Virus record (IMG/VR): IMGVR_UViG_3300034072_001378
Span: 62,001 to 126,000 of that record
DNA: 64,000 nt
Strand: one strand, 5' to 3'
DNA from: a virus
Shown here: positions 12,544 through 28,443 of the stretch, piece by piece
How the letters are laid out: each line of letters begins with the position of its first letter
How positions within the stretch are numbered: position 1 is the first letter of the stretch
Notes under the pieces: model-generated
What the model was told of the DNA's origin: nothing
Databases searched by the model: none
What the model saw: the letters and a program-made list of their open reading frames with translations, nothing else
Translations under genes and position numbers: made by a program

Positions 12544-14184
12544 ATGAAAAATGAATTGTTAGCAATTTTTAAAGCAATAACTCCTGATAACATTAAAGAT
12601 TTACCTTTAATTTCAGATAGTATGGAGATTTTTATAGAACTACTATCTGAAAATTCTTATATAAGTTCAGATGTAAAAAGAGCTCTTTCAGAAAGAACAA
12701 CAGATAGTATTTCAGAGGAATTACCAAAAATATATTTATCTGATTATTATAGTATGATAGAAAATTTAAGAACAAATAAAACAGTTGTTAATAAATTTAA
12801 AAAATGGAATGATACATTAAAACCAAATTTATATCCAATTGGTATGCCTGTTATTAGTGATAAGTTATTAATAAACTATTTTATTATAGGCGAAGAGGGT
12901 TCTCCTTTAATTGAAGAAGGTTCTGAAGGCGATACTGAATGGAATATAAGCCCACTTTCAGGTAAGTTGGATGAATTAAGTAAAAATATTTTAAAAAATA
13001 CACCTGAAAATTACTATATTAATAGAAAATTTAAAGAATCAAAGGGATTAAAAAAATCAGTTCAATTTATTTATGATATTATTAATGAATATATGGTAAG
13101 TCCAGATGAAAGAAAACCGTTGGAATTTAATGAAACAGGTAATCCATTTGAGATAGAATTAATCTCTGGATCAATAGATAAAGATCTATATGAAGAATCT
13201 GTTGCATATTTGGCACATCCATTAGGATTTACATATAATTATGTTTATAAATCAGAAATGAATTTTGTTGATGATTTTTCATTAAGAAATTTTTACGATA
13301 TAAAAATGCTAGAAGTTAGATGTTTAAATGGGAATATTGAGACTTATAATAAAGATGTTATTTTTGTGCAAGAAAAAATAAATTATTTAAAAATAATATT
13401 TTATGATGGAACTTATTTACTTCAAGAAAATGATGTTGTGAAGTATTTTAATGCAAATGATACAATTATAAAATTATATCCACCTGAAAATCATTGTAGT
13501 ATATATTTAGATTATGAAATAGTTTATGAAACGCGTGTTACAGATAAATTAGTATTTAAAGAACTTTCAGAACCATTTATTGATAATGTACAAATTTCTG
13601 ATGATGAATGGTTTAAATATATTTTTAAAATAGATCAAAATAATTTTATTATTGGTTTTAGTTATATAGGTTCAGGAGATATTTTATCGGATGATTCAGA
13701 TATATATGAATCAGTTAAAATAAAAGATGAATTTAATTCAGATTTAGAACATTTATTTACTGAATCTTATATGGTGTTGGATGATTTAATTTATAGCACA
13801 AATATAATAAGTACAGATAATGTTGAAATAAATGAAACATTTAAATCAATAGATGAAGATTATGTTCAAGATAATTATACATACAATATATCAGATATTT
13901 TAGATAGTTCATCTTTAAATAATATAACTGATGATTTTAATATAAATGATACTTTAAATTCTAATTATGCATCTAGTTATACAGATATTAATAGTACAAT
14001 TATAGATGATATTTTAAGTGCAGAAATAATTGAAGAAACTTCAGAAGATTTTAATATTACTGCTTTGGATATATTTTTAGAACCTGAAACAAATAATACA
14101 TTTATAGAACCAAATCAAAGTTCACCCGAAGAATCATATAACATACAAAATTCAATAGAAGAATTTAGTATCGAAATTATGTGA
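12544..14184 (+). CDS. Baseplate-wedge-context protein with acidic low-complexity tail
   Basis: The 546-aa protein is not recognised. Its first 150 residues are helical. The middle is beta-rich and resembles baseplate connector proteins only in composition. The last 140 residues or so are a quasi-repetitive Asp/Ser/Asn/Ile/Thr sequence with recurring D-x-I-L-D/S-S-type units. Position after gp6 suggests a gp7-like or gp8-like wedge role, but this is inferred from context. The gene ends the second baseplate operon. Confidence 0.7.
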   Translation: MKNELLAIFKAITPDNIKDLPLISDSMEIFIELLSENSYISSDVKRALSERTTDSISEELPKIYLSDYYSMIENLRTNKTVVNKFKKWNDTLKPNLYPIGMPVISDKLLINYFIIGEEGSPLIEEGSEGDTEWNISPLSGKLDELSKNILKNTPENYYINRKFKESKGLKKSVQFIYDIINEYMVSPDERKPLEFNETGNPFEIELISGSIDKDLYEESVAYLAHPLGFTYNYVYKSEMNFVDDFSLRNFYDIKMLEVRCLNGNIETYNKDVIFVQEKINYLKIIFYDGTYLLQENDVVKYFNANDTIIKLYPPENHCSIYLDYEIVYETRVTDKLVFKELSEPFIDNVQISDDEWFKYIFKIDQNNFIIGFSYIGSGDILSDDSDIYESVKIKDEFNSDLEHLFTESYMVLDDLIYSTNIISTDNVEINETFKSIDEDYVQDNYTYNISDILDSSSLNNITDDFNINDTLNSNYASSYTDINSTIIDDILSAEIIEETSEDFNITALDIFLEPETNNTFIEPNQSSPEESYNIQNSIEEFSIEIM

Positions 14185-14231
14185 AATGCTTGTGCTTCAT
14201 AATTAAAATTTTCTATTGAAAATTAACAAAA

Positions 14232-14278
14232 GGCTAACCGGGCAGTCCATGCCCTTAGCTAGAGCTTAAGCTCTAGCT
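14232..14278. repeat. Overlapping stem-loops, probable right end of an IS605-type remnant or terminator
   Basis: Two alternative structures share the bases TTAGC. One is a nested stem GCTAA(14233-14237)/TTAGC(14255-14259) around GGGCA/TGCCC. The other is a perfect 22-nt palindrome at 14257-14278 (AGCTAGAGC-TTAA-GCTCTAGCT). They lie downstream of the tnpB-like fragment on its strand, where IS605-type elements carry their end hairpin and omega-RNA scaffold. The AGCTAGA half-stem also resembles the terminator stem reused elsewhere in this phage. Confidence 0.45.
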
Positions 14279-14354
14279 ATTATATTAAAACTATTTTTAA
14301 GATGATAAGATAATGTAATATTCCAAGCTTAATTAAAAGAAATGAAATGATTGT

Positions 14355-14417
14355 CTAAAGTTCAATTTGAGTTTTATTTGGGACAAATTTGTACTTAAAA
14401 ACTTTATTTATTTTCAT
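14355..14417 (-). pseudogene. Remnant of IS200/IS605-type tnpB (OrfB), 20 codons
   Basis: A leftward ORF starts at ATG 14417-14415 behind a strong AAAAGGAGATTAAAG site and reads MKINKVFKYKFVPNKTQIEL, then TAG (14357-14355). This is the typical N-terminus of TnpB/OrfB proteins (M-K-x-x-K-x-x-K-x-R/K-x-x-P-N-K-x-Q). The remaining 350 or so codons are missing, so the element is an internally deleted relic. It is flanked by hairpins on both sides (14232-14278 and 14494-14538). Confidence 0.6.
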
Positions 14418-14493
14418 TTCTTTAATCTCCTTTTAAAATATTTTTATATAGATTATAACATATAAATTAATTTCATATAGAAGAAAAAAGAAA

Positions 14494-14538
14494 AAGCTAA
14501 TTCATCTCCTACCTAAAGAAAGGGAGTCTTCTTAGCTT
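14494..14538. repeat. Nested stem-loop, probable left end of the tnpB remnant
   Basis: AAGCTAA (14494-14500) pairs with TTAGCTT (14532-14538), and CTCC (14506-14509) pairs with GGAG (14523-14526) inside it. Directly after it, AGACT/AGTCT (14541-14556) forms another small hairpin. The GCTAA/TTAGC outer pair also occurs in the hairpin on the other side of the tnpB fragment. The rest of 14185-14667 has no gene. Confidence 0.4.
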
Positions 14539-14639
14539 AAAGACTGATAAAAGTCTAAAAGGAAATTCGCACATTTAGTACTAAACACAAACATTTAAAC
14601 AAAAATTATTGCATAAAGAAATTTTTTGTTAGTCTAAAA

Positions 14640-14647
14640 TATAAATA
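14640..14647 (+). promoter_or_regulatory. T4-type late promoter
   Basis: TATAAATA is at 14640-14647, 20 nt before the ATG of the 187-aa gene and just right of the tnpB remnant. Confidence 0.7.
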
Positions 14648-14667
14648 ATAATAAAAAGGAAATTGAA

Positions 14668-15231
14668 ATGAAAGATTTATACACAAATAAAGTAAAAGGT
14701 CATATAGTAATTGAGTGCTTAGATTCAAATAAAAATGTTATTGATAGATTTGAAAATAAGAACTTAATTATGGATAGTGCTAGAATTGCGATGTCTGATA
14801 TTTTATGTGGTTTGGGTACAGCTGAACCAATTGAAAAATTTGTTCTTGGAACAGAAGGTCATGTTACTGGTGATTATTTAACACCTAAAACAGAATTGGA
14901 AGGATTTGTTAGTTCAAGAACACAATTATTTTCAGAAGAATTAAGTTCATATACTTACCCAATTGTATTTACAAATCCTGGTGTTGCTATTGGAGCATGC
15001 ACAATTGTTTCTGAACCAGATAGCGGTACAACTATAAATTTAGATCATACTGGAACTGATGTTCAATATATAATTGAAATACCCGAATTGGCGGCAAATA
15101 ACACAGGTGTTGTTGTTTTTACTGAAGCTGCTTTATATGCTGGAACAAATATATTCAGTATGAAATGCTTCCCAGGTAAAATTAAAGATAATACTGTTTC
15201 TTTAAAAATCACTTGGACTATTAAGTTATAA
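14668..15231 (+). CDS. Probable tail fibre/baseplate-attached structural protein, 187 aa
   Basis: No named family is certain. The protein is beta-rich with Gly, Thr and Val. It has an N-terminal V-K-G-H-I-V-I-E strand, a middle part containing F-V-L-G-T-E-G-H, and a C-terminal A-A-L-Y-A-G-T-N-x-F-S-M-K-C-F-P-G segment followed by W-T-I. This looks like the short structural proteins encoded with tail fibres. It stands alone between a late promoter (14640) and a strong terminator (15252-15280). Confidence 0.7.
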   Translation: MKDLYTNKVKGHIVIECLDSNKNVIDRFENKNLIMDSARIAMSDILCGLGTAEPIEKFVLGTEGHVTGDYLTPKTELEGFVSSRTQLFSEELSSYTYPIVFTNPGVAIGACTIVSEPDSGTTINLDHTGTDVQYIIEIPELAANNTGVVVFTEAALYAGTNIFSMKCFPGKIKDNTVSLKITWTIKL

Positions 15232-15648: not shown

Positions 15649-16035
15649 ATGGCAATTACGACATATACGGATTTTGTTAATAATTATTTAACAAAAAATG
15701 GGATGATTGGGAATGCTGCTAATATTAATAAAGCACCAGACCAATTAAAATTAGAAATTGATGAAGTTAATTTAAGTATTACTAATGCGAATATTTCTAG
15801 AGCAGATAAGTTTTTGGCTGCTCAAAATATAGCGAATATGATATACAATACTTCAGGAGATTTAATAAAAATAAGATATACAAATAATACAGATGTTAAT
15901 TATGAAGTTCTAGCTTATAATACAAATGGTGATTTAATAACAATTCAGCATTATGTTGAAAGTATTCTAAATGGTACCACAACTTTAAGTTATACTGCTG
16001 GTGAATTAACATCTGTAGTTTATATAGCTGCATAG
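15649..16035 (+). CDS. Probable tail fibre component, 128 aa
   Basis: The protein has a helical N-terminal half and a C-terminal half made of repeated strand-turn units (S-G-D-L-I-K-I-R-Y, N-G-D-L-I-T-I-Q-H, A-G-E-L-T-S-V-V-Y). These look like short YD/RHS-type or fibre repeats. It is the first gene of the operon that runs through the DGR target. Function is inferred from context and composition. Confidence 0.65.
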   Translation: MAITTYTDFVNNYLTKNGMIGNAANINKAPDQLKLEIDEVNLSITNANISRADKFLAAQNIANMIYNTSGDLIKIRYTNNTDVNYEVLAYNTNGDLITIQHYVESILNGTTTLSYTAGELTSVVYIAA

Positions 16036-16043
16036 GAGTTTAA

Positions 16044-16673
16044 ATGGATGCAATAAGTTATTCACATAGTGCCAAACAAGCACGAAGAATTAAAAAATTT
16101 ATAAATAATCCTGATAGTGATTCAGGTGTAGTAACTGTACCAAGTACAATTGCTACTGGTGAGACGATTACAGTACCAGCAGGTAGAACAGCTATTTTAC
16201 CAGATGTAACTGTAGAAGGTGATTTAGTAGTTGAAGGTGGTGTATTTATTCCTACTGGAAGTACATATACACAAGAGACTATTAAGACTGAAGCTATTAG
16301 TAATGTAGCTGGGACTACTGTTGTTGATGTTACTGATATAGCTAAAAGTAGTGTTATTACACCTGCATTAGCTTTAAAAGCAAATACTACGGATTTAAAA
16401 GAAATTGGAGTAGGTCAAACTTGGCAAGATGTTACAACTAGTAGAAGTTTAGGGGTTACATATACAAATACAACTGGTAAACCAATAGAAATAAAAGTAT
16501 CTGTAAATTGTACTGCTGGAACTGGAAATACTCTAAGAATTAATGGAAATCCTATTGACACTATAACAGACCAGTCAGCTGGTCTACATTCGTTTTCTGC
16601 AATTATTCCAAATAATTCAAAATACATGATAGATAATTTTAATACTATATCAAGATGGTCAGAACTAAGATAA
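16044..16673 (+). CDS. Tail fibre protein, 209 aa
   Basis: A short basic N-terminus (S-A-K-Q-A-R-R-I-K-K-F-I) is followed by a solenoid-like stretch rich in Val, Thr and Gly (G-E-T-I-T-V-P-A-G-R-T-A, about residues 38-70) and a beta-sandwich-like C-terminal domain beginning at I-G-V-G-Q-T-W-Q-D-V (about 120). The T-W-x-D-V-T-x-S-R start is common in phage fibre tips. The Tfa-like gene follows after 9 nt. Confidence 0.7.
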   Translation: MDAISYSHSAKQARRIKKFINNPDSDSGVVTVPSTIATGETITVPAGRTAILPDVTVEGDLVVEGGVFIPTGSTYTQETIKTEAISNVAGTTVVDVTDIAKSSVITPALALKANTTDLKEIGVGQTWQDVTTSRSLGVTYTNTTGKPIEIKVSVNCTAGTGNTLRINGNPIDTITDQSAGLHSFSAIIPNNSKYMIDNFNTISRWSELR

Positions 16674-16682
16674 GGACAATAA

Positions 16683-17006
16683 ATGAGAAATTTTTTTAAA
16701 GATGAAAATAATAAGGTTTATGAGTATGATAACGAGCAAGTAAAGCAAGGATATGGAAAGGATTTAATTTCTATAACAGAAGAAGAAATGTTAGCAATAA
16801 CAAATCCGCCTAAAACAGAAGAACAATTACTAGCTGAAAAAAATCAAGAAGCTAACTCATACCTAACTCAAACAGATTGGGTAGAAACTTATAAACTTAG
16901 ACATGATTTAGGATTAGAATTAATTCCAGAAGATAGCTCTAAATGGGAAGTTATAAATAAAAGAGAAGAATATAAAACATTCTTAAAATCAATAGGAGGT
17001 AACTAA
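16683..17006 (+). CDS. Tail fibre assembly (Tfa)-like protein, copy 1
   Basis: The 107-aa protein ends in the region typical of Tfa/gp38-like fibre assembly proteins: Y-L-T-Q-T-D-W (about 61-67), then K-R-E-E-Y-K-T-F-L-K-S-I-G-G-N at the end. Two related genes occur at 19387 and 22978. They are probably chaperones or adaptors for the neighbouring fibres. Its stop overlaps the next start (TAATG). Confidence 0.7.
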   Translation: MRNFFKDENNKVYEYDNEQVKQGYGKDLISITEEEMLAITNPPKTEEQLLAEKNQEANSYLTQTDWVETYKLRHDLGLELIPEDSSKWEVINKREEYKTFLKSIGGN

Positions 17007-19387
17007 TGGGTTTACTTTTACAAGGTGGTAGTGGAAACATTGCCAATATACAATTTGAGGGTGGTGATGGAAACAAATCTATCATCATTCCTAAAGAAGG
17101 TGGCAGATTAGCTATTGGAGCTAATTTATCAGGAGTAGCACCTTATAATTTATTAGCTGGAGATTTAAGTGTAAGTAATGAAGTTATTACTAATGGATTT
17201 AGTACAACGTTATATACTGGTAGTGGCAGTGCTAACACCATTAATACTGGTATAGATATGGACACACAACATGGTAATGATGCTAGTGAGAGATTTGGAG
17301 GGTTAGTATGGTTAAAGAGCAGAAGCTTAGTATCTAATAATGCTTTTTTTGATACAGTTAGAGGTGCTACAAAGTATGTAGTGCCAAATACAACTGATAC
17401 AGAAATAACTCAAGTTGCTTCTGTAACTTCATTTAATAATAATGGATTTAGCTTAGGTACTTCATTTAATACAAATTTAGCTACCTATGTGTCTTGGAAC
17501 TTCCAAACAACACATAGAAGAACTGGTACTACAAATCACGGTAAAACATTTACTGAACATTATAATCCATTTACAGGATTTACAATTATTAAGTACGAAG
17601 GAAGTGGTTTAGCTGGGCACGAGATACCACATGCATTAGGTAGAAAGTTAGGGTTTGTAGCTGTTAAGAATTTAAGTGCTACTGTAAATTGGGTAGTAAC
17701 AAATGAAAGTAATAAATTTATGTATCTAAATTTAACTGACGCAATCACTTCAAGTATTGTTGCTTTTGGCGATGTACTAAATAACGTCGTAACTATTAAT
17801 ACATCTGCGTCTGTAAACACATCAACAAACCAATATATAATGTACGGTTGGGCTAATAGTTACTTTGATGAGTCTAATAAACTAATAGGTAATTATGAAA
17901 TAGGTACTTATCAAGGTACTGGAGCAGCTGGTAATAAAATTACAACTAGAGATAAACCGGCTTGGTTATTAATTAAAAGATTGGACGCAGCTGCAGATTG
18001 GGTAATTATAGATAACCAAAGAACGACAAAATATTTATTAGCTAATAGTTCTCAAGCTGAGATTGATGATGTAAATGATGTACTATTTAGTTCTCTAGAT
18101 TTTACTATCAATAGTACCGGAACGACATGGAATGCTTCAGGCGGACAATACCTATATATGGTAGTATATGACAATGACTCTGGTTCAGGTAAATCAAAAT
18201 ATCCAAGAGCTACTGATACAAGTAACTTACAAATCAATAATGCTTTAATACCTTTTGCTAATGGTATAGATAGTAATGGTACTAAGAATAGTATTATAAG
18301 TAAGAATGAAAGTATTACTGGATTAACTTATACAGCTGGTAAGAACTATGTTTATACTTTAGAAAATGGTACTTATGGAGTTAAACCATTTAGACCTAGA
18401 TACTTAAGAAGTGATTTAGTAGCTGAAAGAGCTGGAGATAACCCTGATTACTTTGATGTATTTAGTAATAAATGGTTTAGTACAATTGCAAGTAGTGAGT
18501 TAGTTACTAATGGTACATTTACTGATGGGACTACAACTGGTTGGATTTCTACATTGGGTACTTCAATATCTAATGTTAGTAGTACATTAAGAATATCTGC
18601 GTTAAGAGCTACAGTAGGAAAGACATATACAAATGTAAGTCTTATACCTGGCAAAAGATATAAATTGAAACTTAATTATTCACAAGTTAATACAAATATG
18701 TTATTTTATTGCTGGTTTGAAAACTCTAGTGATGTAGAACAGCTTAGAGTTTTAACTGGAGCTAGTAGTGGTACAGTAGACTATGAATTTATTGCACAAA
18801 ACGGGTATGATAGATTAGTTACTTATGTTGGTGGAGGTGCTAGTGGTGACGGGTTATATTCCATAGATAATGTAAGTATTTATCCAATTGATTTGGTTTT
18901 AGACACAGAAATACCATCAAGAAACTATATGAATCATATAGTGTATGCAGATGCTAATGGACAATTAACTTATGAAGAAGAATTACCTAAAACTCAATAC
19001 TTTGATAGAATTGAAACATCTGAAAATAGGAAAGTAATTTACTTAGCTGACAGAGGTATTAGCGCTATTCAAGTTAATAAAAGATACGTTTTAGAAAATC
19101 CATTTGGAAATGAGAATTTTATGGATTGTGACACCAAGCTAGAGATTTATGATAGTGGTATAAATGATTGGATTAGCATTGGTGGAATAACTCAATCATC
19201 ATCTTTATATTTTGGCTCAAATGTATACTCTATAAAGGAAGGCATAGAAATTACAACAGCATCAAATAACTTAGCTAGAGCAGATACAGCATATGGTAAT
19301 CAATCAAAACCAGCTTCTGGTAACCTTACTTCTGCGCCAGCTAGAGTAACAATTCAATATAATGGAAAAACAGGGAGAGTAAAATAA
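17006..19387 (+). CDS. Large tail fibre / receptor-binding protein, 793 aa
   Basis: The protein begins with a short attachment-like segment (G-L-L-L-Q-G-G-S-G-N-I-A-N-I-Q-F, 2-17). About residues 60-410 hold tandem domains with the pattern G-L-V-W-L-K-x-R-S, F-D-T-V-R-G and P-x-W-L-L-I-K-R-L, as in a common phage and cyanophage fibre domain. A carbohydrate-binding-like beta-sandwich follows (about 490-620: N-G-T-F-T-D-G-T-T-T-G-W) and a C-terminal tip ends in R-V-T-I-Q-Y-N-G-K-T-G. It is flanked by TAATG overlaps with Tfa-like genes on both sides and probably forms the main long fibre. Confidence 0.8.
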   Translation: MGLLLQGGSGNIANIQFEGGDGNKSIIIPKEGGRLAIGANLSGVAPYNLLAGDLSVSNEVITNGFSTTLYTGSGSANTINTGIDMDTQHGNDASERFGGLVWLKSRSLVSNNAFFDTVRGATKYVVPNTTDTEITQVASVTSFNNNGFSLGTSFNTNLATYVSWNFQTTHRRTGTTNHGKTFTEHYNPFTGFTIIKYEGSGLAGHEIPHALGRKLGFVAVKNLSATVNWVVTNESNKFMYLNLTDAITSSIVAFGDVLNNVVTINTSASVNTSTNQYIMYGWANSYFDESNKLIGNYEIGTYQGTGAAGNKITTRDKPAWLLIKRLDAAADWVIIDNQRTTKYLLANSSQAEIDDVNDVLFSSLDFTINSTGTTWNASGGQYLYMVVYDNDSGSGKSKYPRATDTSNLQINNALIPFANGIDSNGTKNSIISKNESITGLTYTAGKNYVYTLENGTYGVKPFRPRYLRSDLVAERAGDNPDYFDVFSNKWFSTIASSELVTNGTFTDGTTTGWISTLGTSISNVSSTLRISALRATVGKTYTNVSLIPGKRYKLKLNYSQVNTNMLFYCWFENSSDVEQLRVLTGASSGTVDYEFIAQNGYDRLVTYVGGGASGDGLYSIDNVSIYPIDLVLDTEIPSRNYMNHIVYADANGQLTYEEELPKTQYFDRIETSENRKVIYLADRGISAIQVNKRYVLENPFGNENFMDCDTKLEIYDSGINDWISIGGITQSSSLYFGSNVYSIKEGIEITTASNNLARADTAYGNQSKPASGNLTSAPARVTIQYNGKTGRVK

Positions 19388-19716
19388 TGGAAATATCAGT
19401 AATAATAAATGGAGTACCTCAAATGGTAGCAGTTTCTAAGCTAGAAGCTCTACCTGATGGAACATTTGCAGAATATTACAACGAAGATGGTACTATTGAT
19501 ACAGTGACAGAAGATAGAGTGAAAGCTGAAAAAGAAGCTAAAGATAGTATCAACGAAGCTAAGCAATATCTAACAGATACAGATTGGATAGTTGTTAAGC
19601 TACAAGAAGCACAATTACTTGGAACAGATATATCTGAAATGCTTACAAAGTATTCTACAGAACTTACAAAAAGAGAAGAATGCAGAGCTTTAATAAATAA
19701 ATTAGGAGGTAACTAA
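19387..19716 (+). CDS. Tail fibre assembly (Tfa)-like protein, copy 2
   Basis: The 109-aa protein has the same layout as copy 1: Y-L-T-D-T-D-W near residues 61-67 and K-R-E-E-C-R-A-L-I-N-K-L-G-G-N at the end. TAATG overlaps join it to the large fibre before it and the DGR target after it. Confidence 0.7.
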   Translation: MEISVIINGVPQMVAVSKLEALPDGTFAEYYNEDGTIDTVTEDRVKAEKEAKDSINEAKQYLTDTDWIVVKLQEAQLLGTDISEMLTKYSTELTKREECRALINKLGGN

Positions 19717-20888
19717 TGATAAAAATTAGTGGGACAACTGGTATAGATATGGGAGGAAACCCTGTATCTAATGCTACAGACGTTGAAACAAATAGAGGAA
19801 ATTTAACTGAAGTTTTTGACTTTACTTCATTTAGCAAACCAAATGAATATAAAAATAAAGTTATATTTACAAAAACTGATCCAGCTGGATTCTCAATACC
19901 TGCTGGTGTAATTGTTAAAGTAAATAATAATGTTATAAAACTAGAAAATATAATTAATTTAAGTTTAAATACAAATCTAGACATTGGGGCGAAAGTGCCT
20001 GGAACAGATTATTATGTTTATATTTCAGAAGATGGATCTGCTTTTATTAGTGCAAATAAGAATATTACAACATCTAGATTAATAGGTGGATTTCATTATG
20101 GATTAACAGGCGAAACTGAAATAAGACCTTCACCGTCTTTAAAAACTGAATCAGATATGATTATGAATAGAGGTATTAAAGGATATTCATTTTGGGATTT
20201 GGCTTGGTTACCTTCTAATGGAATACCAGAAGGTAAGGTTCTAGTTAATAATATGTTTTGGAGAGATATATACCCAGCTGATTCAGATTACGCAATAAGA
20301 GGTTATAGTTCTTGTTTTGCGATAGGTGGAGGTATTGCAAAACTTGCGGGTGGAGCAGCAACAAACGGGAGATTATTTCCAAAAATACCAATAAGTTATG
20401 GTGGTAATGGTACTATTAATTATGGATCTTTAACATGGTATGAATCTTCTGAAATTGCGGGTTCTGTAGGTGGAAGATTGCCTAATTACGCAGAATTTGC
20501 AAATAGTTCTTATGGTGTTGTTGAACAAAAATCTCTTGGAGAGTTAGGTTACGCAACAGGAACAGGAAATATACAACATTATCCAGAACTTGAAAGTAAA
20601 TGGGGTGTTGAGATGGCGACGGGTGTTCAATATTATTGGGGTTCACAGATTATGAATGGGTATGGGACCACTGATTTTGCTCATAGATTAAATTTAACAG
20701 AAGGCAGGGGGTCTTTATACTCTACATCAAACTCACCTATAGGTATAAGATTAGGTGGTTATGAATTAGGTACGAGTACCGCTGATGTAGCTGGTTCACG
20801 TTACTTGAATTTGTCTGATTATGTGTGGCGCACTGATTGGTATTATGGTTTTTGCGTACTTTGTGACCACATGAACCTTGCGGTGTGA
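19716..20888 (+). CDS. DGR target protein: C-type-lectin-fold tail adhesin with variable repeat
   Basis: The 390-aa protein has an N-terminal fibre-attachment part (1-150) and a C-terminal FGE/C-type-lectin-like domain. The latter begins near G-Y-S-F-W-D-L-A-W-L-P (about 157) and contains F-W-R-D-I-Y-P, G-G-R-L-P-N-Y-A-E-F and S-P-I-G-I-R-L-G-G-Y, ending in C-V-L-C-D-H-M. This is the architecture of DGR-diversified phage receptor binders such as Bordetella Mtd. The last 35 codons contain the VR. Codons 356, 357, 364, 368, 369, 373, 375, 377 and 378 differ from TR, and eight of these are AAY in TR. The protein probably binds a variable host surface receptor. Confidence 0.9.
   Translation: MIKISGTTGIDMGGNPVSNATDVETNRGNLTEVFDFTSFSKPNEYKNKVIFTKTDPAGFSIPAGVIVKVNNNVIKLENIINLSLNTNLDIGAKVPGTDYYVYISEDGSAFISANKNITTSRLIGGFHYGLTGETEIRPSPSLKTESDMIMNRGIKGYSFWDLAWLPSNGIPEGKVLVNNMFWRDIYPADSDYAIRGYSSCFAIGGGIAKLAGGAATNGRLFPKIPISYGGNGTINYGSLTWYESSEIAGSVGGRLPNYAEFANSSYGVVEQKSLGELGYATGTGNIQHYPELESKWGVEMATGVQYYWGSQIMNGYGTTDFAHRLNLTEGRGSLYSTSNSPIGIRLGGYELGTSTADVAGSRYLNLSDYVWRTDWYYGFCVLCDHMNLAV
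20774..20867 (+). repeat. DGR variable repeat (VR)
   Basis: This 94-nt segment aligns without gaps to TR 21396-21489 (offset 622). It differs at 20782, 20784, 20802, 20814, 20815, 20817, 20829, 20830, 20835, 20841 and 20844. All 11 differences are at TR adenines (A to C, G or T). The last 23 nt are identical and would act as the initiation region (IMH). The boundary could reach 20870, since C/A differences continue there before homology ends. Confidence 0.95.
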
Positions 20889-20902
20889 GTGAAAACTCAC
20901 AC
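20883..20902 (+). promoter_or_regulatory. DGR target-site hairpin/cruciform
   Basis: GTGTGAGT (20883-20890), GAAA loop (20891-20894), ACTCACAC (20895-20902) form a perfect 8-bp stem 15 nt downstream of VR, overlapping the stop codon. In Bordetella phage and related DGRs, a hairpin with a GRNA tetraloop just after the IMH is needed for efficient target recognition. The match in size, loop and place is close. The bases after it are not a T run, so it is not a typical terminator. Confidence 0.8.
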
Positions 20903-20929
20903 ATAAATACATTACACTAAAGGATAACA

Positions 20930-21355
20930 TTGCAAATAATAAACGAAACAAATAAAATGATAGAAGATTTTTTAAAGATACAGAATATAAAAAAATTTCT
21001 AGAGGAAGATCTTGGCGAAAATATAATTATAATTAGAAAATATGATGCATTTCTTAGATATGTTTATCCAATTATGCTAAAAATACCAAATGAGCACAAA
21101 TATCTAAAGGATTCTTTAATTTCTAATATTTTTGAGACTATAGATCTGATAAATAAAGCTTTAAAAACTGATCAAATATCTAAATTATATGAAATTGATG
21201 CTAATCTTTCATCAATTAGATATAAAATTAAATTCTTAAGTTCAGAAAAAATAAGATCAGTATCGACCGAACAACTGAAAATTTCTAATATATTACTTTC
21301 TGAAGTTGGTTCTATTCTAAACTCTTGGATTACAAGTAAAAGAAGTAGAAGCTAA
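20930..21355 (+). CDS. avd: DGR accessory variability determinant (Avd)
   Basis: The 141-aa all-helical protein has the Avd four-helix-bundle pattern: Y-D-A-F-L-R-Y-V-Y-P-I (about 38-48), then L-Y-E-I-D-A-N-L-S-S-I-R-Y-K-I and the conserved end I-L-L-S-E-V-G-S-I-L-N-S-W followed by basic K-R-S-R-S. Avd forms a pentamer that binds the DGR reverse transcriptase and template RNA and is required for mutagenic retrohoming. It starts at TTG behind AAAGGATAACA, 41 nt after the target gene and just before TR. Confidence 0.85.
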   Translation: MQIINETNKMIEDFLKIQNIKKFLEEDLGENIIIIRKYDAFLRYVYPIMLKIPNEHKYLKDSLISNIFETIDLINKALKTDQISKLYEIDANLSSIRYKIKFLSSEKIRSVSTEQLKISNILLSEVGSILNSWITSKRSRS

Positions 21356-21655
21356 ATATAAATATAATGTACCTAATGGTACAGGGTTAAAGATAGAGTA
21401 CCGATAATGTAGCTGGTTCACGTAACTTGAATTTGAATAATTATGTGTGGAACACTAATTGGAATAATGGTTTTTGCGTACTTTGTGACAAATTTATTTA
21501 GAAATAGGTCAGTCAGAACTGCTAAGGCACAATGGTGATCTTCAATTTTAAATGGTCAGCTTTAATCCCGTGTAAACAAATTATATGGGTCTGGATAACT
21601 ACGAGTACGACAATATGTTTGGAAAGTAGAAGCCAGCATTTAACAAAGGAATTTA
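21356..21655 (+). ncRNA. DGR template-RNA region (TR plus flanking spacer)
   Basis: This 300-nt stretch between avd and the reverse transcriptase has no ORF and is less AT-rich than its surroundings. It starts with a small hairpin (TGTACC-TAAT-GGTACA, 21369-21384) before TR. After TR comes about 165 nt of spacer, including ACGAGTACGACAATATG (21600-21616), which echoes the TR start GAGTACCGATAATG. In characterised DGRs the RNA extends from upstream of TR into such a spacer and primes cDNA synthesis. The boundaries here are inferred. Confidence 0.7.
21396..21489 (+). repeat. DGR template repeat (TR)
   Basis: TR is the master copy for VR 20774-20867. Read in the VR frame, it has AAT/AAC codons at eight of the nine variable positions. 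It therefore encodes Asn wherever diversity is created, which is the codon bias typical of DGR templates (AAY can become 15 amino acids without making stops). Confidence 0.95.
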
Positions 21656-23002
21656 TTGAAGAAAATAACAAGAACACAAAAAGTAAAAAATTTTTTAAGA
21701 AAATCGCCTAACTATATGCTAATTAGTTCTAAAAGAAAAGAATTAGACAACTACACATTATCTGAATTGGGATTTCTTTTAAAAGATTATGAAATAATTC
21801 AAGAAATAAAAAGAAGAAAACAGTATTATATAAATGCAGAAATAAAACAAAAATATTTGACTTCTATAAAAATACCTGAAATTCCAAAAAAGAAAAGCAA
21901 TAAATATAAAAATTTGATGAAATATATCACACAAGATTCAAATTTATTAAATGCATTTTATAAAGCGGCAAAGGGTAATAAAAACAGTAAATCATATTTT
22001 AAATTTAATAAAAATAGAGATATAAATTTAACAATACTAAAGAATGAATTATTAGAAAAAACATATAAAAGAGGAGATTATTATACATTTATTGTTTTAG
22101 ATCCAAAAGTAAGAGTTATTAATTCTTTGTCATTTAGGGATAGAGTGGTTCAACATGCTATAAACAATATTATAGAACCAATATTTGAAAGAACATTTTA
22201 TATACATTCTTATGCATGCAGAAAGAATAAAGGTACTCATAAATGCGCAAAAGAAACACAAGCTGCAATTAGAAGAATAAATAAAAGGTATGGAACTTGT
22301 AAAGTTCTAAAAATGGATTTTTCCAAATATTTTTCATCTATAAATTCTGATATTCTTATAAATGAGATAAGAAAAAGAATAAAGGATGAAGAACTTATGA
22401 ATATTCTTTTGCAATATATAAATAATATTGGAATAAATATTGGTAACTTATTATCACAGTTATTCGCTAATATTTATGGAAATATTTTTGATTTATATAT
22501 AAAACACGAATTAAAAATAAAATATTATTTTAGATATATGGATGATACCGTTATTCTTTCAAATGATGTGAATATTCTCTATAATATAAAAGAAAAATTA
22601 GATAAATTTATAAAAACCAAAATGAATCTTAAATTTAGTCATTGGTACATACATGATGTTGAGGAAAAATCAGTGAATTTTGTTGGATATAGAATAAGAA
22701 ATAAATATAAACTAATAAGAAAACAAACTTCATTAAGGTTTAAAAGAAAATTAATTAAATTTAATCATATTTTAAAAGAAAATTTAAACGAATTAAAGGA
22801 TCTTTTATTTGATTATAGGGAAATATATAATATACCATATCATTTTAAGTATAAAATATTTAAAATACTTCAAGAAAATTTTAATTCATTTGAGATGATA
22901 TTGGGTGCATATAAGGGTATATCATTGTTAGCAGATAATCAAAAAGTAAAAATTAACTTAAAAGGAGAATATACAAAATGGAAGAAAATGCAATTAACAT
23001 AA
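21656..23002 (+). CDS. DGR reverse transcriptase
   Basis: The 448-aa protein has group-II-intron-like RT motifs in order: F-R-D-R-V-V-Q-H-A (160-168), K-M-D-F-S-K-Y-F-S-S-I with catalytic Asp221, I-G-N-L-L-S-Q (262-268) and the active site F-R-Y-M-D-D (292-297). The I-G-x-x-x-S-Q form of motif 4, in place of Q-G-x-x-x-S-P, is a hallmark of DGR reverse transcriptases. There is no maturase or endonuclease domain. The start is TTG behind AAAGGAATTTA. It overlaps the following Tfa-like gene by 25 nt. It makes error-prone (adenine-specific) cDNA of TR that replaces VR. Confidence 0.93.
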   Translation: MKKITRTQKVKNFLRKSPNYMLISSKRKELDNYTLSELGFLLKDYEIIQEIKRRKQYYINAEIKQKYLTSIKIPEIPKKKSNKYKNLMKYITQDSNLLNAFYKAAKGNKNSKSYFKFNKNRDINLTILKNELLEKTYKRGDYYTFIVLDPKVRVINSLSFRDRVVQHAINNIIEPIFERTFYIHSYACRKNKGTHKCAKETQAAIRRINKRYGTCKVLKMDFSKYFSSINSDILINEIRKRIKDEELMNILLQYINNIGINIGNLLSQLFANIYGNIFDLYIKHELKIKYYFRYMDDTVILSNDVNILYNIKEKLDKFIKTKMNLKFSHWYIHDVEEKSVNFVGYRIRNKYKLIRKQTSLRFKRKLIKFNHILKENLNELKDLLFDYREIYNIPYHFKYKIFKILQENFNSFEMILGAYKGISLLADNQKVKINLKGEYTKWKKMQLT

Positions 23003-23313
23003 AGAATGCTATATATAAATTAACAAATAGACCAATAGCGATGAATGAGGGTAAATATATTTATTTTGACACATTAAGTATTGGTATTGAGGAAGTAACA
23101 TCTGAAATCTTAAAAGAAGCTGAAGTATTAGCAAAAGCAGAGTTAGATAAAAAAATATTGAATGATAAAATAACTGAATATCAGGCTTATTTAAACAAAA
23201 CAGATCATAAGTTCTTTAATGGATATAAACCTAAAGATGGTGAAGATTTGTTCGCAATTGAAGCTAAGAGAGATGAATACAGAGAATTTATTAGATCAAA
23301 TGGGATTATATAA
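22978..23313 (+). CDS. Tail fibre assembly (Tfa)-like protein, copy 3
   Basis: The 111-aa protein keeps the pattern of the other two copies (Y-L-N-K-T-D-H near 66-72, K-R-D-E-Y-R-E-F-I-R at the end) with Trp replaced by His. Its ATG lies inside the end of the RT gene behind AAAGGAGAATATACAA. By analogy with the other copies it should serve the adhesin at 19716, so the avd-TR-RT cassette sits between a fibre gene and its partner. TAATG couples it to the next gene. Confidence 0.65.
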   Translation: MEENAINIKNAIYKLTNRPIAMNEGKYIYFDTLSIGIEEVTSEILKEAEVLAKAELDKKILNDKITEYQAYLNKTDHKFFNGYKPKDGEDLFAIEAKRDEYREFIRSNGII

Positions 23314-24056
23314 TGACAGAAATACTAATAGTCCTAGGAATTATACTAGGCTTAGTACTTACTGGAGTCTTGAATAGACTTAGAGGCACTGGATTAATTA
23401 AACACTTTGGAACATTAAGAATACAAGAACATGAGTTTAAAATATATAAGTACAAACTAAAAGTACCAGAGATGAGTATAGAAATTAAGCTAGTATGGAA
23501 TCATATATATGGATTGTACTTTGCGTTAATATTTGGATACTTAACTGGTTCAATTGGAATTGGAGTAGCTGCATTAGTTGCTTATCTAGTTGGAGAATCT
23601 AAAGGTTGGGGAGAATGGGTTGGAGCTTTAACTAGATGGGAACCTAAAAATGAGGCTTGGCTTATTAGGCAATATGAAGATGATGAAGGTAAAAAGTTTC
23701 CATTTATACATCAGATAGCTAACTATTTCATTAAAGAAAAAGGTTTTGGTTCTTTGGACGATAGATTAAAACAGTATACTAAATATGCTACTTTAGCATT
23801 AACTCTTAGAGGAATATATTGGTTCTTACCGATGACATTAATTGCTATATTTACAGGATTAATTAGTTGGTACTTTGGATTGTTATCATTGGTATTAATT
23901 GGAGTATCATTTCCATTGGCTTGTTACTTGGGAAAATTGATTAAGTTCAAAAAATCTTTTAAATTTCTGCATTTTAGCAGAGGCTGGGAAAATCAAGAAT
24001 TTGTTTATGGTATTTTCCATTTCATATTCTTTATATTACCATTAATACTTCTTTAG
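23313..24056 (+). CDS. Multi-pass membrane protein, 247 aa
   Basis: At least five hydrophobic segments are visible (about 4-20, 68-92, 166-185, 187-212 and 229-247). Between the second and third is a soluble loop with W-V-G-A-L-T-R-W-E-P-K-N-E-A-W-L. It is the last gene of the fibre operon, coupled to Tfa copy 3. Possible roles are envelope modification or superinfection exclusion, but nothing in the sequence decides this. Confidence 0.7.
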   Translation: MTEILIVLGIILGLVLTGVLNRLRGTGLIKHFGTLRIQEHEFKIYKYKLKVPEMSIEIKLVWNHIYGLYFALIFGYLTGSIGIGVAALVAYLVGESKGWGEWVGALTRWEPKNEAWLIRQYEDDEGKKFPFIHQIANYFIKEKGFGSLDDRLKQYTKYATLALTLRGIYWFLPMTLIAIFTGLISWYFGLLSLVLIGVSFPLACYLGKLIKFKKSFKFLHFSRGWENQEFVYGIFHFIFFILPLILL

Positions 24057-24093
24057 AATTAATACTACTTTAAATAATCATAGTATATAATTC
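24055..24093 (+). promoter_or_regulatory. Early/middle-type promoter
   Basis: AATTAATACTACTTTAA is followed by CATAGTATATAAT, a match to the early promoter class with a longer internal spacing. Its transcript would begin just before the long hairpin at 24096-24136. Confidence 0.5.
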
Positions 24094-24095
24094 AC

Positions 24096-24136
24096 TTACA
24101 TAAAATCATAAAGTAAAATTTTATGATTTTATGTAA
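24096..24136 (+). promoter_or_regulatory. Long perfect hairpin in the 5' leader
   Basis: A 17-bp perfect stem (24096-24112 with 24120-24136) has a 7-nt loop. A Tn-rich tract follows only if read leftward, so on the minus strand it could be a terminator. Read rightward it would form the 5' end of the mRNA for the 182-aa gene. The remaining 200 nt to the gene hold no ORF, only AT-rich DNA with a small TGTACTAAAAGTACA hairpin near 24275. Confidence 0.5.
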
Positions 24137-24342
24137 AAAATAAACTTATCTATTTACATTTTTTTAAAAAATATTATATAATATTATACTTAAAAATCTA
24201 CAAATTTGATAAAATCAAAAAATCTTAATATTGTTAATCACAAAATAAAATATAATGCTATACTAACTAGCACTTGTACTAAAAGTACACTCAAATTAAA
24301 ACTATTCAAAAACTTACATCACATAAATTTCAAAGGAGCTTA

Positions 24343-24891
24343 ATGCAATTAACAAAAATTCCGGACTTTAATAGACTCGAGAAATCAAAGAAAGATAAAT
24401 ACAAAACAAAAGAAGAACTTCCAGTACATATGCTTTATTTAACTGAAGACCACGTGCTTGGTGCAGAATTATGTGAATTAATGCAGATTCATATGGCTAA
24501 TATTAGTAATCTTAAACTACCTAGTATTTTAAAATTTGGAAATTGTCCTATTCTTTGTAAATCAGATTCTAATTTACCCCCAAAAATAAAAAGTAATCTT
24601 TTTAGATCAGATTTAACATCTTTAAAAGATAAAATTCCATTATCATATTTTAAATCAGAATATAATTTAACAAATGAAGAAATATTGAAGCACGTTGCTG
24701 ATAAAATTGAGATTATTGCAGGTAGGAAAATTCTTTGTTATAAACCTGAATTCTTACAAAAAATAAAAAGATACAAGATTGATAATATGATTTATATTGC
24801 AGATAGAAAGGAATTAAATGAATTTCTTTATGAATATGAAGATATAGATTATATAGCAGTTTCAAAAAATAAATATATTGTTATATATTAA
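24343..24891 (+). CDS. Hypothetical protein, 182 aa, possible HTH near N-terminus
   Basis: No family is recognised. Residues 36-56 (V-L-G-A-E-L-C-E-L-M-Q-I-H-M-A-N-I-S-N-L-K) resemble a helix-turn-helix, which would make this a regulator. The C-terminal half is Ile/Lys/Tyr-rich alpha/beta. The gene has an unusually long leader (about 250 nt) with a strong hairpin. ATG follows CAAAGGAGCTTA. Confidence 0.6.
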   Translation: MQLTKIPDFNRLEKSKKDKYKTKEELPVHMLYLTEDHVLGAELCELMQIHMANISNLKLPSILKFGNCPILCKSDSNLPPKIKSNLFRSDLTSLKDKIPLSYFKSEYNLTNEEILKHVADKIEIIAGRKILCYKPEFLQKIKRYKIDNMIYIADRKELNEFLYEYEDIDYIAVSKNKYIVIY

Positions 24892-25106: not shown

Positions 25107-25565
25107 CTAAACAATTTTGAAATAATCAAATTTTAAACTTAAATCCATCGTTGATTCTGTTTCTGGGTTTGTTGTATCTAATTCAATGTCGCCAATACTT
25201 TCGATTCTGCAATTATAAAATTCAAACTTTAAAATTTTATTTGATTTTGAATTATTTAATTCTATCCAAAAAGAAAATGGAGTATTTGAAAATGTCCCAT
25301 CAGGTGTATCAACTGCTAAATTTAAGTACTCATAAAATTTTCTGTAAATTTCAAATTCTTCATCAATTAAAAATGTGAAGTTCAAAGTGTTATAAGAAAC
25401 AGTGTCTGATGCTAGATTTAATTTTGAACCAAATCTAGCCCCTGTTTCAGGTAAATTAAATGTCATACCGGGAATATTAACGGTTGTTAGATAAAATGGT
25501 ATTAGTTCAAATCTATCAGAACCACCGGTCCAGTTGGTTTTTTGTGCAAAATTATGAATATTCAT
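25107..25565 (-). CDS. Tail tube (gp19)-like protein
   Basis: The 152-aa protein resembles T4-like tube proteins in length (gp19 is 163 aa) and pattern: F-x-L-I-P-F-Y-L-T-T-V-N-I-P-G near residues 20-34, F-N-L-P-E-T-G-A-R-F-G (36-46), a central T-F-L-I-D-E-E-F-E-I-Y-R-K-F-Y segment and a beta C-terminus (M-D-L-S-L-K-F-D-Y-F). It is the only late structural gene here on the minus strand and has its own late promoter (25584-25591). It could be the main tube protein or a tube-like baseplate protein. Confidence 0.7.
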   Translation of the reverse strand: MNIHNFAQKTNWTGGSDRFELIPFYLTTVNIPGMTFNLPETGARFGSKLNLASDTVSYNTLNFTFLIDEEFEIYRKFYEYLNLAVDTPDGTFSNTPFSFWIELNNSKSNKILKFEFYNCRIESIGDIELDTTNPETESTMDLSLKFDYFKIV

Positions 25566-25583
25566 TTAGATTCCTTTTTAAAT

Positions 25584-25591
25584 TATTTATA
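25584..25591 (-). promoter_or_regulatory. T4-type late promoter (leftward)
   Basis: TATTTATA on the plus strand is TATAAATA on the minus strand, 19 nt before the ATG of the tube-like gene. Confidence 0.7.
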
Positions 25592-25607
25592 TTCTATATA
25601 AAAGAAA

Positions 25608-25635
25608 TTAATATTTTGTTATATATAATTATATA
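25608..25635 (+). promoter_or_regulatory. Early/middle-type promoter
   Basis: TTAATATTTTGTTATATATAAT, 20 nt before the sigma-factor gene, divergent from the late promoter at 25584. Confidence 0.5.
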
Positions 25636-25654
25636 TACAAAATAAAGGAGCTAT

Positions 25655-26746
25655 ATGACAGAAATATATGAAATACCTAAAAATAAATCAAAAAAAGAAA
25701 AATCTCAAAATCAATACATTAATGAAACAGAATTAAAGTCATTAATTATAAGAATAAACAATAAAACTTTTAAAGATTATCTGAGTCTTTATTTTTCAGA
25801 ATTAAATAATTTACTTAAAGACTCAAAAAATAATAAAGAACAAATAGTTCAAATTCTTAAAAATATTATAAAGGATAAAAAATATCAATTACTTTTACTA
25901 TCTGATGAAGATCTAAAGGAATTAAAGGATTTAGTTCTAAATTTTACAGAAGAAAAAGATGATAAAAATTTTAAAAGTATTCTTAAAATTGTAGAACCTT
26001 TAAATAAAGAAATTTTTGAAAAGACAAAATATTTGAATTTAGAGTATAAAAATGATCTAAAAAGATTAAGTAAATACATAAAAAAACACCATAAAAGTAA
26101 ATCACAAAAATACAAAAGAATTTTAAGAGATAGTATAATAAAAATATCAGAAAGAAATATTATAGATTCTGAATCATATGAAAGATTTGGAGAATTGGTT
26201 CTTCTAATTATAAAAAATATACTAAAGAAACCTAAATTCAGCGGTTATACTTATAGAGATGAATTTTATTCGGATAGTACAGATAAAATTTTTAGATATA
26301 TGAAGAACTTTAATCATAAACTTATATCTAAAATAACAAATCAACCAGTAAATGCATTTAGTTATATAAGCCAATATGTGCACAATAGTATTTTACATAT
26401 TATTAATACAAAGAACACAGAAACAGAAGAAACACAAAATTTTATTAATTCTTATAATTCTGCACTAAATGATGAAACAAATAACAGTTCATTAGATTTC
26501 TTTGATTTAAGAGTAAAAGAATTTAATTGCAGCATTAAAAAAATAAATGATTCATTGTTACTAGAAATACAAAAGGAATTGGATAATATTGATTCAGATA
26601 AATTTTTGAAATACACTGATTTTGTATTTTTTTATCCAGAAGATTATAAAATATCTTTAGATGAATATAAAGATATTCTAAAACTAAAAGAAAATTTAAC
26701 AGGAACTTTAACAATAACTAAACAAAAAGCAAAGGAGCAAATTTGA
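25655..26746 (+). CDS. 55: gp55-like late sigma factor with extensions
   Basis: The 363-aa protein aligns with T4 gp55 (185 aa) in its centre. K-F-S-G-Y-T-Y-R-D-E-F (194-204) matches N-F-S-G-Y-T-Q-S-W-K-Q-E, and M-K-N-F-N through A-F-S-Y-I-S-Q-Y-V-H-N-S-I matches the T4 L-H-N-F-D through A-Y-I-T-Q-A segment. This is the sigma domain-2 region that reads TATAAATA. A helical extension of about 175 residues precedes it. S-L-D-F-F (279-283) resembles the clamp-binding end of T4 gp55 (S-L-D-F-L) but here lies 80 residues before the C-terminus. The next gene is a probable gp33. Confidence 0.8.
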   Translation: MTEIYEIPKNKSKKEKSQNQYINETELKSLIIRINNKTFKDYLSLYFSELNNLLKDSKNNKEQIVQILKNIIKDKKYQLLLLSDEDLKELKDLVLNFTEEKDDKNFKSILKIVEPLNKEIFEKTKYLNLEYKNDLKRLSKYIKKHHKSKSQKYKRILRDSIIKISERNIIDSESYERFGELVLLIIKNILKKPKFSGYTYRDEFYSDSTDKIFRYMKNFNHKLISKITNQPVNAFSYISQYVHNSILHIINTKNTETEETQNFINSYNSALNDETNNSSLDFFDLRVKEFNCSIKKINDSLLLEIQKELDNIDSDKFLKYTDFVFFYPEDYKISLDEYKDILKLKENLTGTLTITKQKAKEQI

Positions 26747-27012
26747 ATTTAATACAAGAAAATGAATTAACAGAACAGGAACTTTATCCTGTTTTATTAA
26801 ATAAAATACTAAAATATATTATAAAAGTAAAAGAATCAGATAAAGAAACATCTATGCTAGATTTAATTTTAGAATATTCTATGAGAAATTCATTAGATAT
26901 AGAATTAATTGGTGATGCGATAAGCACAGATGATTACTTCAAGAATATTTTACAAAAAGATTTAGAAATAAACAATTACGGTTCTGAAAAAAAGGTTAAT
27001 TATGATTGGTAA
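26743..27012 (+). CDS. Probable gp33-like late transcription co-activator
   Basis: The 89-aa acidic helical protein starts at TTG inside the stop of the sigma gene (ATTTGA, ribosome site AAAGGAG), so translation is coupled. The core M-L-D-L-I-L-E-Y-S-M-R-N-S-L-D-I-E-L-I followed by L-x-K-D-L-E resembles the short helical gp33 family of T4-like phages. A C-terminal L-D-F-L-type clamp-binding motif is not present (it ends K-K-V-N-Y-D-W). The assignment rests mainly on context. Confidence 0.5.
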   Translation: MNLIQENELTEQELYPVLLNKILKYIIKVKESDKETSMLDLILEYSMRNSLDIELIGDAISTDDYFKNILQKDLEINNYGSEKKVNYDW

Positions 27013-27259
27013 AGTTCAAAGATTAAAAGACATTCAACATAGACTGAAAAGTATGACAGATTCAGAGAAAATAAATTATCTAAGATTTGACTTGCCTGAA
27101 GATATAGACTACATTATTAATATTGATAATGATTCAGTTTATATACATTTGGGTTATAATAAACATGAAGAAAGTATTGGTGTTGAATTTGATGAGTTTG
27201 GATATTCACTATTGAGAACATTATTTGAGTGCTTAGCATTAAAATCAGATTTTGTTTAG
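27002..27259 (+). CDS. Hypothetical protein, 85 aa
   Basis: Not recognised. It has a short basic N-terminal helix, then an acidic alpha/beta part (F-D-L-P-E-D-I-D-Y-I-I-N-I-D). The ATG lies 11 nt inside the preceding gene, behind AAAAAAGGTTAATT, so it is probably co-translated with the gp55/gp33 pair. Confidence 0.7.
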   Translation: MIGKVQRLKDIQHRLKSMTDSEKINYLRFDLPEDIDYIINIDNDSVYIHLGYNKHEESIGVEFDEFGYSLLRTLFECLALKSDFV

Positions 27260-27270
27260 AATTTAATTTA

Positions 27271-27295
27271 GCTTTAATATTCTTTTGTATATAAT
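27271..27295 (+). promoter_or_regulatory. Early/middle-type promoter
   Basis: GCTTTAATATT, CTTTT, GTATATAAT: a full match to the repeated consensus, 28 nt before the next ATG. Confidence 0.7.
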
Positions 27296-27322
27296 TATAT
27301 TATATAAATTAAAGGATATTAA

Positions 27323-27871
27323 ATGCAATATTTAGATAATATAATTTTAGAATTAACAAAAGATATTCAAGAAAAAACAGTTGAATGGATATTCCAAGCA
27401 ATTGAGAAAACAAGAGAATTGGATATTACATTATATCAAAAAGCAAATGATTTAGCATTAGAAAAAATCCCTAATGACAGAAGAGAAAGAGTTTATGCAG
27501 TTCCTTCTATTATAAAAGAAATTATTGAAGAAACTATTGGAACAAATACATATAATGTTGGTAAATACTACATTCAAAGAGGAGTTAATAGAAATTTAAG
27601 AGCAGAAAAAGTTTTAGAAGATGTTCAAAAAGATTTTAACGGAAAAAGAATAGCTTTAAAAAATAAAATTTTAAAATCTTGTGAAAAATGCAATTCAGAA
27701 ATAAATGAAATTTCAAAAATATATCCTTTAGATAATAATACTCTTGGAGCAGAAATTTTGCTAGAAAATAATGATAAAATAATTATTTCTATTATTTGTG
27801 CTGGTGGATATAACATTCAATGCTTTCATTATAGAAGCAATATTAAAATTATTAAACACAAAGGAAAATAA
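27323..27871 (+). CDS. Hypothetical protein, 182 aa
   Basis: Not recognised. The first 120 residues are helical and charged. C-x-x-C (S-C-E-K-C-N, about 113-118) and a beta-rich end with C-A-G-G-Y-N-I-Q-C-F-H may bind metal. It is the first gene behind the early promoter at 27271. Confidence 0.7.
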   Translation: MQYLDNIILELTKDIQEKTVEWIFQAIEKTRELDITLYQKANDLALEKIPNDRRERVYAVPSIIKEIIEETIGTNTYNVGKYYIQRGVNRNLRAEKVLEDVQKDFNGKRIALKNKILKSCEKCNSEINEISKIYPLDNNTLGAEILLENNDKIIISIICAGGYNIQCFHYRSNIKIIKHKGK

Positions 27872-28084
27872 ATGGGATTTACGGGATTATATAAAGAATA
27901 CTATTACTATTCTTGGTTTATTTTTGTTCTTAGATTTAGAAGTGGATCATATGACTATAGAAGAAATGGAGAAGAAAGATGCGGATGGGCAGAAAAATCT
28001 GATTTAATTGATGTAAGATTAACACCCTCTAAAGCAAAGCAAGTAGCGGAAGAATTAAATATGATTAGAAAAACAATTCTATAA
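27872..28084 (+). CDS. Hypothetical protein, 70 aa
   Basis: Not recognised. It has an aromatic N-terminus (Y-K-E-Y-Y-Y-Y-S-W-F) and a helical C-terminus. ATG abuts the previous TAA behind AAAGGAAAATAA. A longer reading in another frame (27798-28007) is judged a shadow because it overlaps the preceding gene. Confidence 0.65.
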   Translation: MGFTGLYKEYYYYSWFIFVLRFRSGSYDYRRNGEERCGWAEKSDLIDVRLTPSKAKQVAEELNMIRKTIL

Positions 28085-28096
28085 AAATAATGATTA

Positions 28097-28423
28097 ATGA
28101 TTTACTCAAAAGAAATTAAAAAAGATCCGAAAGGATTTGTTATAAAATCAACAAACCAAAGAATATTACTATATGGTAAATTAGTAAAAATAATTAAATA
28201 CAAAGAATATTTTGGTAAAGTTTTAGTTTTTTATAAACAAAAAGGAAAAATTTATCAAAAATATTTTGTAAAAGATTATTTCAAAGAAAGAGTTGGAAGT
28301 AACGTTGAAATGACAAGATTTATATTACAATACAAAAATATATTATTGCTTAGAAAAGTAAAAGAATTAGCAAGAAGATATCTAATAAGATATAAGTACT
28401 ATGAGTATTTAATTAAACTTTAA
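28097..28423 (+). CDS. Hypothetical strongly basic protein, 108 aa
   Basis: Not recognised. Very rich in Lys, Arg, Tyr and Ile with an estimated high pI. A beta-rich first half (I-L-L-Y-G-K-L-V-K-I-I-K-Y) is followed by a basic helix. Nucleic-acid binding is possible from charge alone. No good ribosome site is seen, but it is tightly spaced after the preceding gene. Confidence 0.6.
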   Translation: MIYSKEIKKDPKGFVIKSTNQRILLYGKLVKIIKYKEYFGKVLVFYKQKGKIYQKYFVKDYFKERVGSNVEMTRFILQYKNILLLRKVKELARRYLIRYKYYEYLIKL

Positions 28424-28443
28424 TATTCTTTTGTATATAATAA
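28415..28443 (+). promoter_or_regulatory. Early/middle-type promoter
   Basis: AAACTTTAATATT, CTTTT, GTATATAATAAAA: near-perfect consensus, overlapping the end of the preceding gene and 20 nt before the next ATG. Confidence 0.7.

Follow-up and report, generated by a model that had tools for sequence, protein, structure and literature searches.

The window, a 64,000-nucleotide stretch of a 127-kb viral record (IMG/VR IMGVR_UViG_3300034072_001378, positions 62,001 to 126,000), very probably carries a complete diversity-generating retroelement (DGR) of the type by which the Bordetella phage BPP-1 keeps altering its host-attachment protein. The element and its Mtd-family target would have entered, as one module, the tail-fibre exchange site of a T4-type phage that is known from metagenomic DNA only. 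A complete DGR had been claimed by the initial annotation, with target, Avd, template repeat and reverse transcriptase (RT) arranged as in the Bordetella phage; the order is correct, and the repeat pair, Avd, RT and Mtd target are all present. The cassette holds two further parts that were absent from that annotation, a putative spacer RNA and a hairpin behind the variable repeat. The cassette parts described below are all located on the plus strand.

The variable repeat (VR, 20774..20867, codons 354-384 of mtd) and the template repeat (TR, 21396..21489, with nine AAY codons) were aligned without gaps over 94 nt, with 83 identical positions and 11 mismatches. All 11 mismatches fall on TR adenines, of which there are 27 in the 94 nt (hypergeometric p = 1.9e-7), and all the changes hit first or second codon positions, while the three adenines at third positions are unaltered. 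Nine codons are altered from TR to VR: eight are AAY in TR, with Asn replaced by Asp (three), Tyr (three), Arg (one) or Ser (one), and the ninth is GAT changed to GCT, which replaces Asp by Ala. The repeat coordinates, the 11 adenine-only differences and the list of nine codons given by the initial annotation were all reproduced exactly on re-alignment. An unsupervised scan for A-biased repeats in the 10 kb around the cassette returned this TR/VR pair alone, and no second VR copy was found in the whole 127-kb record. As in BPP-1, TR diverges from VR at the CDH codon, here past 21489, with a putative IMH* in the 3' extension of TR to about 21502; by comparison with BPP-1, the IMH lies at the end of VR and onward to about 20880. 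A 44-nt match at C1:14541 also turned up in the repeat search.

The target gene mtd (19716..20888) encodes a 390-aa Mtd-family tail adhesin with VR at its C-terminus. Its product was matched to Pfam PF21916, the second domain of Mtd (E 1e-14), to the tail protein PHROG 11262 (6.8e-57) and, over residues 41-387, to the solved Mtd structure PDB 1yu0 (E 9.2e-30); the N-terminal 37 residues or so are unique to this phage. A structure prediction, as proposed with the initial annotation, was obtained with AlphaFold2 (pLDDT 84, with lower certainty for the first 34 residues and for part of 311-360). Foldseek placed the five Mtd variants 1yu0-1yu4 on top for this model (E 2.8e-26, TM 0.75), followed by formylglycine-generating enzymes. 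To compare the variable positions, the TR codons were mapped onto BPP-1 by anchoring at the common C-D-H. The nine TR AAN codons correspond to BPP-1 positions 349, 355, 357, 359, 360, 364, 366, 368 and 369; seven of them (357, 359, 360, 364, 366, 368 and 369) coincide, without gaps, with sites where BPP-1 VR differs from its own TR. Sequence and predicted fold both make the target a homologue of Mtd, the major tropism determinant of BPP-1, and its variable domain at the C-terminus is of the lectin type; this agrees with the lectin-fold tail adhesin of the initial annotation. Mtd probably serves as receptor binder in this phage.

Behind mtd, the accessory variability determinant avd (20930..21355, 141 aa) begins with a TTG start preceded by AAAGGA, and its product was matched to PF22296 (5e-22), to the Avd family PHROG 3206 (2.5e-12) and to BPP-1 Avd, PDB 4dwl (1.5e-17). 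The spacer RNA (21509..21637) is a full-length match to Rfam RF03022, Phage_DGR, in which the UGGUCAGC core is conserved; its score of 43 bits (E 3.4e-5) is below the curated Rfam cut-off of 50, the relatives scoring 60-84 bits and BPP-1 104.7 bits. Spacer A21558 aligns with A56, the cDNA-priming adenine of BPP-1. The RT gene (21656..23002, 448 aa, TTG start) codes for a protein matching RVT_1 (7e-15) and PHROG 1423 (1.2e-92), and its best solved relative is the BPP-1 bRT, PDB 8ub7 (E 1.4e-60). Both motifs noticed from the letters, the DGR-type I-G-x-x-x-S-Q (here IGNLLSQ) and YMDD, are intact and no catalytic motif has been lost. Nine of the 76 otherwise invariant RT positions are altered, mostly conservatively. 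Two additions distinguish the protein: residues 1-80 form an N-terminal extension, new to this analysis and absent from the relatives in the alignment, and an insert of about 26 aa is found towards the C-terminus. The end of the RT gene is overlapped by a 111-aa gene (22978..23313), a member of a small family found behind RT in the related cassettes, whose product is a candidate for a fifth cassette component or a fibre chaperone.

The hairpin behind VR, GTGTGAGT-GAAA-ACTCACAC (20883..20902), has an 8-bp stem with every pair Watson-Crick and a GRNA loop, and overlaps the mtd stop codon; its counterpart in BPP-1, GCGGGGCC-GAAA-GGCCCCGC, is likewise fully Watson-Crick. According to PMC3240598, an 8-10-bp stem with a GRNA loop is necessary for efficient homing in BPP-1, and by the criteria set out there both the IMH at the VR end and the hairpin behind it are present here. 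In BPP-1, as described in PMC3240598 and PMC12875486, the spacer RNA is bound by the RT-Avd complex, and cDNA synthesis is primed by an adenine within the spacer and proceeds into TR. Copying errors arise at the adenines, and the resulting cDNA takes the place of VR with the aid of the IMH and the hairpin. Each sequence feature of this mechanism has a recognisable and unbroken counterpart in our cassette. By analogy, RT and Avd would be bound by the TR-spacer RNA, the spacer adenine would prime cDNA synthesis with miscopying of the template adenines, and the cDNA would substitute VR at the end of mtd, with guidance from the IMH and, directly behind it, the GAAA hairpin. The new Mtd variants may then alter the receptor bound by the virion.

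From its sequence the element is probably active at present. If so, such phages could track receptor changes without awaiting ordinary mutation. It is unlikely that the element was formerly active and is now decaying in this lineage, with VR as an allele that past homing left behind and that is now fixed, even if the long RT branch (0.85), the spacer RNA score of 43 bits against 60-84 in the relatives, the alteration of five of the 16 otherwise invariant Avd positions and the unusual RT N-terminal extension are compatible with decay. Against it, the three reading frames are intact, with zero stops or frameshifts, YMDD, IGNLLSQ and the RNA core are kept, and the hairpin is completely paired. 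Furthermore, VR and TR are otherwise identical (83/94 positions) and their near-identity thus points to recent homing; the backbone itself is AT-rich and divergent, so that fast change is general in this phage. Other members of the population were searched for variants of the repeat: a degenerate-pattern scan of IMG/VR found no same-population contig with this VR or TR, and a single-sequence Mtd scan found no same-population Mtd. Two contigs (L069 and L114) have an MCP 100% identical to that of this phage over the matched stretch, and neither gave an Mtd match. Contigs with an identical capsid gene occur in the samples 3300035670 and 3300024239.

The T4-like nature of the carrier, assumed from the start, is borne out by the proteins encoded in the record: a T4-type Gp23 (PF07068, 1.6e-104), scaffold (T4_CASP), prohead protease (Peptidase_S77), baseplate wedge, tube cap and tail sheath. 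For capsid, baseplate and UvsW, the nearest cultured relatives are phages of the Vibrio Va1 group (44-69%), then Campylobacter phages (31-50%); the MCP is 68% identical to that of Vibrio phage Va1, which has a T4-type backbone and a collinear baseplate region, and 40-50% identical to those of the Campylobacter T4-type phages of the CP220 and NCTC12673 groups. The gene order of Va1 is kept at 6161-15231 and at 25107-31284, and between these two blocks lies the tail-fibre exchange interval that holds the DGR (15649..24891). At the same site Va1 has one ordinary annotated gene (Va1_288), whereas in this phage fibre genes, the DGR among them, fill about 9 kb. Since the Va1-collinear flanks enclose a single gene in Va1, the cassette entered the tail-fibre site by insertion or by exchange, and on this gene-order evidence it appears to have been gained as one module that included the Mtd-family target.

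The nearest cassette relative belongs to a P2-like contig (L004), so that the possibility of an assembly chimera between a T4-type and a P2-like phage was considered; it is very improbable, as the cassette is only 56-66% identical to L004 in protein, synteny with Va1 holds on both flanks, and the G+C content of RT and avd (21-23%) agrees with that of this phage (25%) rather than with the relatives, whose loci are mostly at 28-44%. The same G+C agreement makes a recent arrival of the cassette unlikely. As RVT_1 by itself cannot separate DGRs from other RTs, one could also imagine an ordinary repeat or gene duplication beside an unrelated retron or group II intron RT, a reading left with practically no weight by the A-only mismatches, Avd, the spacer RNA, the hairpin, the IGxxxSQ motif and the bRT best match.

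About 17 related cassettes were found with the same order and spacing, and in most of them an A-specific VR/TR pair is detectable. The closest ones are Campylobacterota-associated phage DGRs (L004, L230, L149 Sulfurimonas, L151 Sulfuricurvum, L152 Arcobacteraceae and others), with the same gene order, up to 69% identity in Mtd and 46-56% in RT. Among the relatives in which structural genes were identified, the nearest is L004, a P2-like phage by its neighbouring genes, whose Mtd shares 66% identity. No Gp23 was seen in the 20 Mtd-cassette contigs tested, most of which are fragments. In the RT tree, our sequence falls in a Campylobacterota-containing clade (support 96/97) with BPP-1 as sister (100/99); L230 and L004 are its nearest rows, and all four named bacterial contigs of the clade are Campylobacterota. 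A retron or group II intron RT was ruled out by the bRT best match and this placement. Towards BPP-1, a 42-kb Rauchvirus, the resemblance extends to the order mtd-avd-TR-spacer RNA-RT, the Mtd target, the seven common variable codon positions, the GAAA-loop hairpin behind VR, the IMH/IMH*-like divergence and the small gene overlapping the RT end. In contrast with BPP-1, the carrier here is a T4-type phage, protein identity is only 30% (Mtd) to 40% (RT), TR is shorter on its 5' side, the sequence is AT-rich, and RT has the extension of about 80 aa.

The probable Campylobacterota host of the initial annotation is plausible but unproven: the RT clade and the second-nearest backbones, those of Campylobacter phages, are in favor of it, whereas the nearest cultured backbones are those of Vibrio phages. 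A comparison with GTDB genomes places each of the four best RT relatives on a Campylobacterota contig (Sulfurimonas, Helicobacteraceae, Sulfuricurvum and Arcobacteraceae); no MCP was found in these four genomes. When a 20-kb query was searched for spacer matches in 397 Campylobacterota genomes, most of the genomes gave only AT-rich hits, usually short and partial, which carry no information on the host. A Gp47-like protein considered as host marker was likewise uninformative, its nearest matches being in cyanophages (30%).

It is conceivable, at somewhat less than an even chance, that a T4-type and presumably strictly lytic lineage took the whole Mtd-DGR module at the tail-fibre site from P2-like, presumably temperate Campylobacterota phages, and uses it for programmed receptor-binder variation. 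In that history the hairpin would have lost a tandem A.G/G.A mismatch invariant in the donor clade and RT would have gained its N-terminal domain, possibly as adaptations to T4-type replication. More generally, the T4-type case and the DGR-free site in Va1 suggest that the whole cassette of target and mutator travels from one phage type to another as a single tail-fibre module.

DGRs were once reported from temperate phages only (PMC6199706); they have since been found in lytic slurry metagenomic phages (PMC7981956) and crAss-like phages (PMC7290462), and the DGRs described from metagenomes exceed 30,000 (PMC8144416). IMG/VR contains one more Gp23 phage whose DGR has a complete A-specific VR/TR pair (3300010283_000005, L029); unlike ours, its target is PHROG 5302 and not Mtd, and its RT belongs to another DGR clade. 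The new setting put forward initially is weakened by this phage and by the published lytic and crAss-like DGRs. The literature search found no T4-type phage described with a DGR of the Mtd type, but the published metagenomic sets may include this contig or close relatives. The novelty is an unusual and informative setting, not a new mechanism.

The hairpins of the related cassettes differ from those of this phage and BPP-1 by a tandem A.G/G.A mismatch. Their loops are GAAA or GGAA. Pairs 3 and 4 from the loop are A.G and G.A in 19 of 19 cassettes, and pairs 1, 2, 5 and 6 covary, being Watson-Crick in 45 of the 48 instances given by 12 distinct sequences, both counts being somewhat favoured by the choice of hairpins with a score rewarding Watson-Crick and G.A pairs. 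In the shuffle control, whose statistic ignores the relatedness of the cassettes, the mean was 22.8 and none of 10,000 shuffles reached 45. The structure is considered real because it has a fixed place right after the stop codon and occurs with swapped arms (GTGAGT/ACGAAC versus CGAAC/GTGAG). In its available portion, the 2011 account of phage DGR hairpins describes 7-10-bp GC-rich stems, with no mention of the tandem mismatch. An invariant tandem A.G/G.A core within a covarying stem offers a testable lead on the feature behind VR that is recognised by the homing machinery or by a host nuclease. By eye, the same pattern is seen in the L247 hairpin, GTGAGC-GAAA-GCGAGC.

Stem-loops located behind the VR of the target gene were compared between the window (20883-20902) and related DGR cassettes of other contigs (L004, from a P2-like phage, L005, L149-L152, L229, L230, L232-L237, L239-L241, L243 and L246). 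In the Campylobacterota-type DGR clade, a tandem A.G/G.A mismatch is invariant at pairs 3-4, counted from the loop, and the pairs flanking this mismatch covary, whereas the hairpin of the window phage is Watson-Crick paired at the same positions and devoid of the tandem mismatch. On the L240 contig (1356-1469 and 5988-6108), two Mtd-type target genes appear to be served by a single TR.

The RT residues 1-80 (window 21656-21895) constitute an N-terminal extension that is absent from the nearest relatives. No match to this segment was detected in Pfam or PHROG and no homologue was found among the fetched loci. At the other extremity, the end of the RT gene is overlapped by a small gene (22978-23313) whose homologues sit behind the RT in related cassettes. 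In this family, the N-terminal part is conserved and the C-terminal part is variable; the product is a candidate for either a chaperone of the fibre or a fifth component of the DGR.

A second phage carrying both Gp23, the T4-type major capsid protein, and a complete DGR was found (L029, IMG/VR 3300010283_000005, 142 kb). Its DGR is unrelated to that of the window and targets a PHROG 5302 tail protein. In the window, two paralogous genes of ∼108 codons (16683-17006 and 19387-19716) each adjoin a fibre gene, and the product of the latter resembles tail-fibre assembly proteins (PHROG 4912, 1.4e-5).
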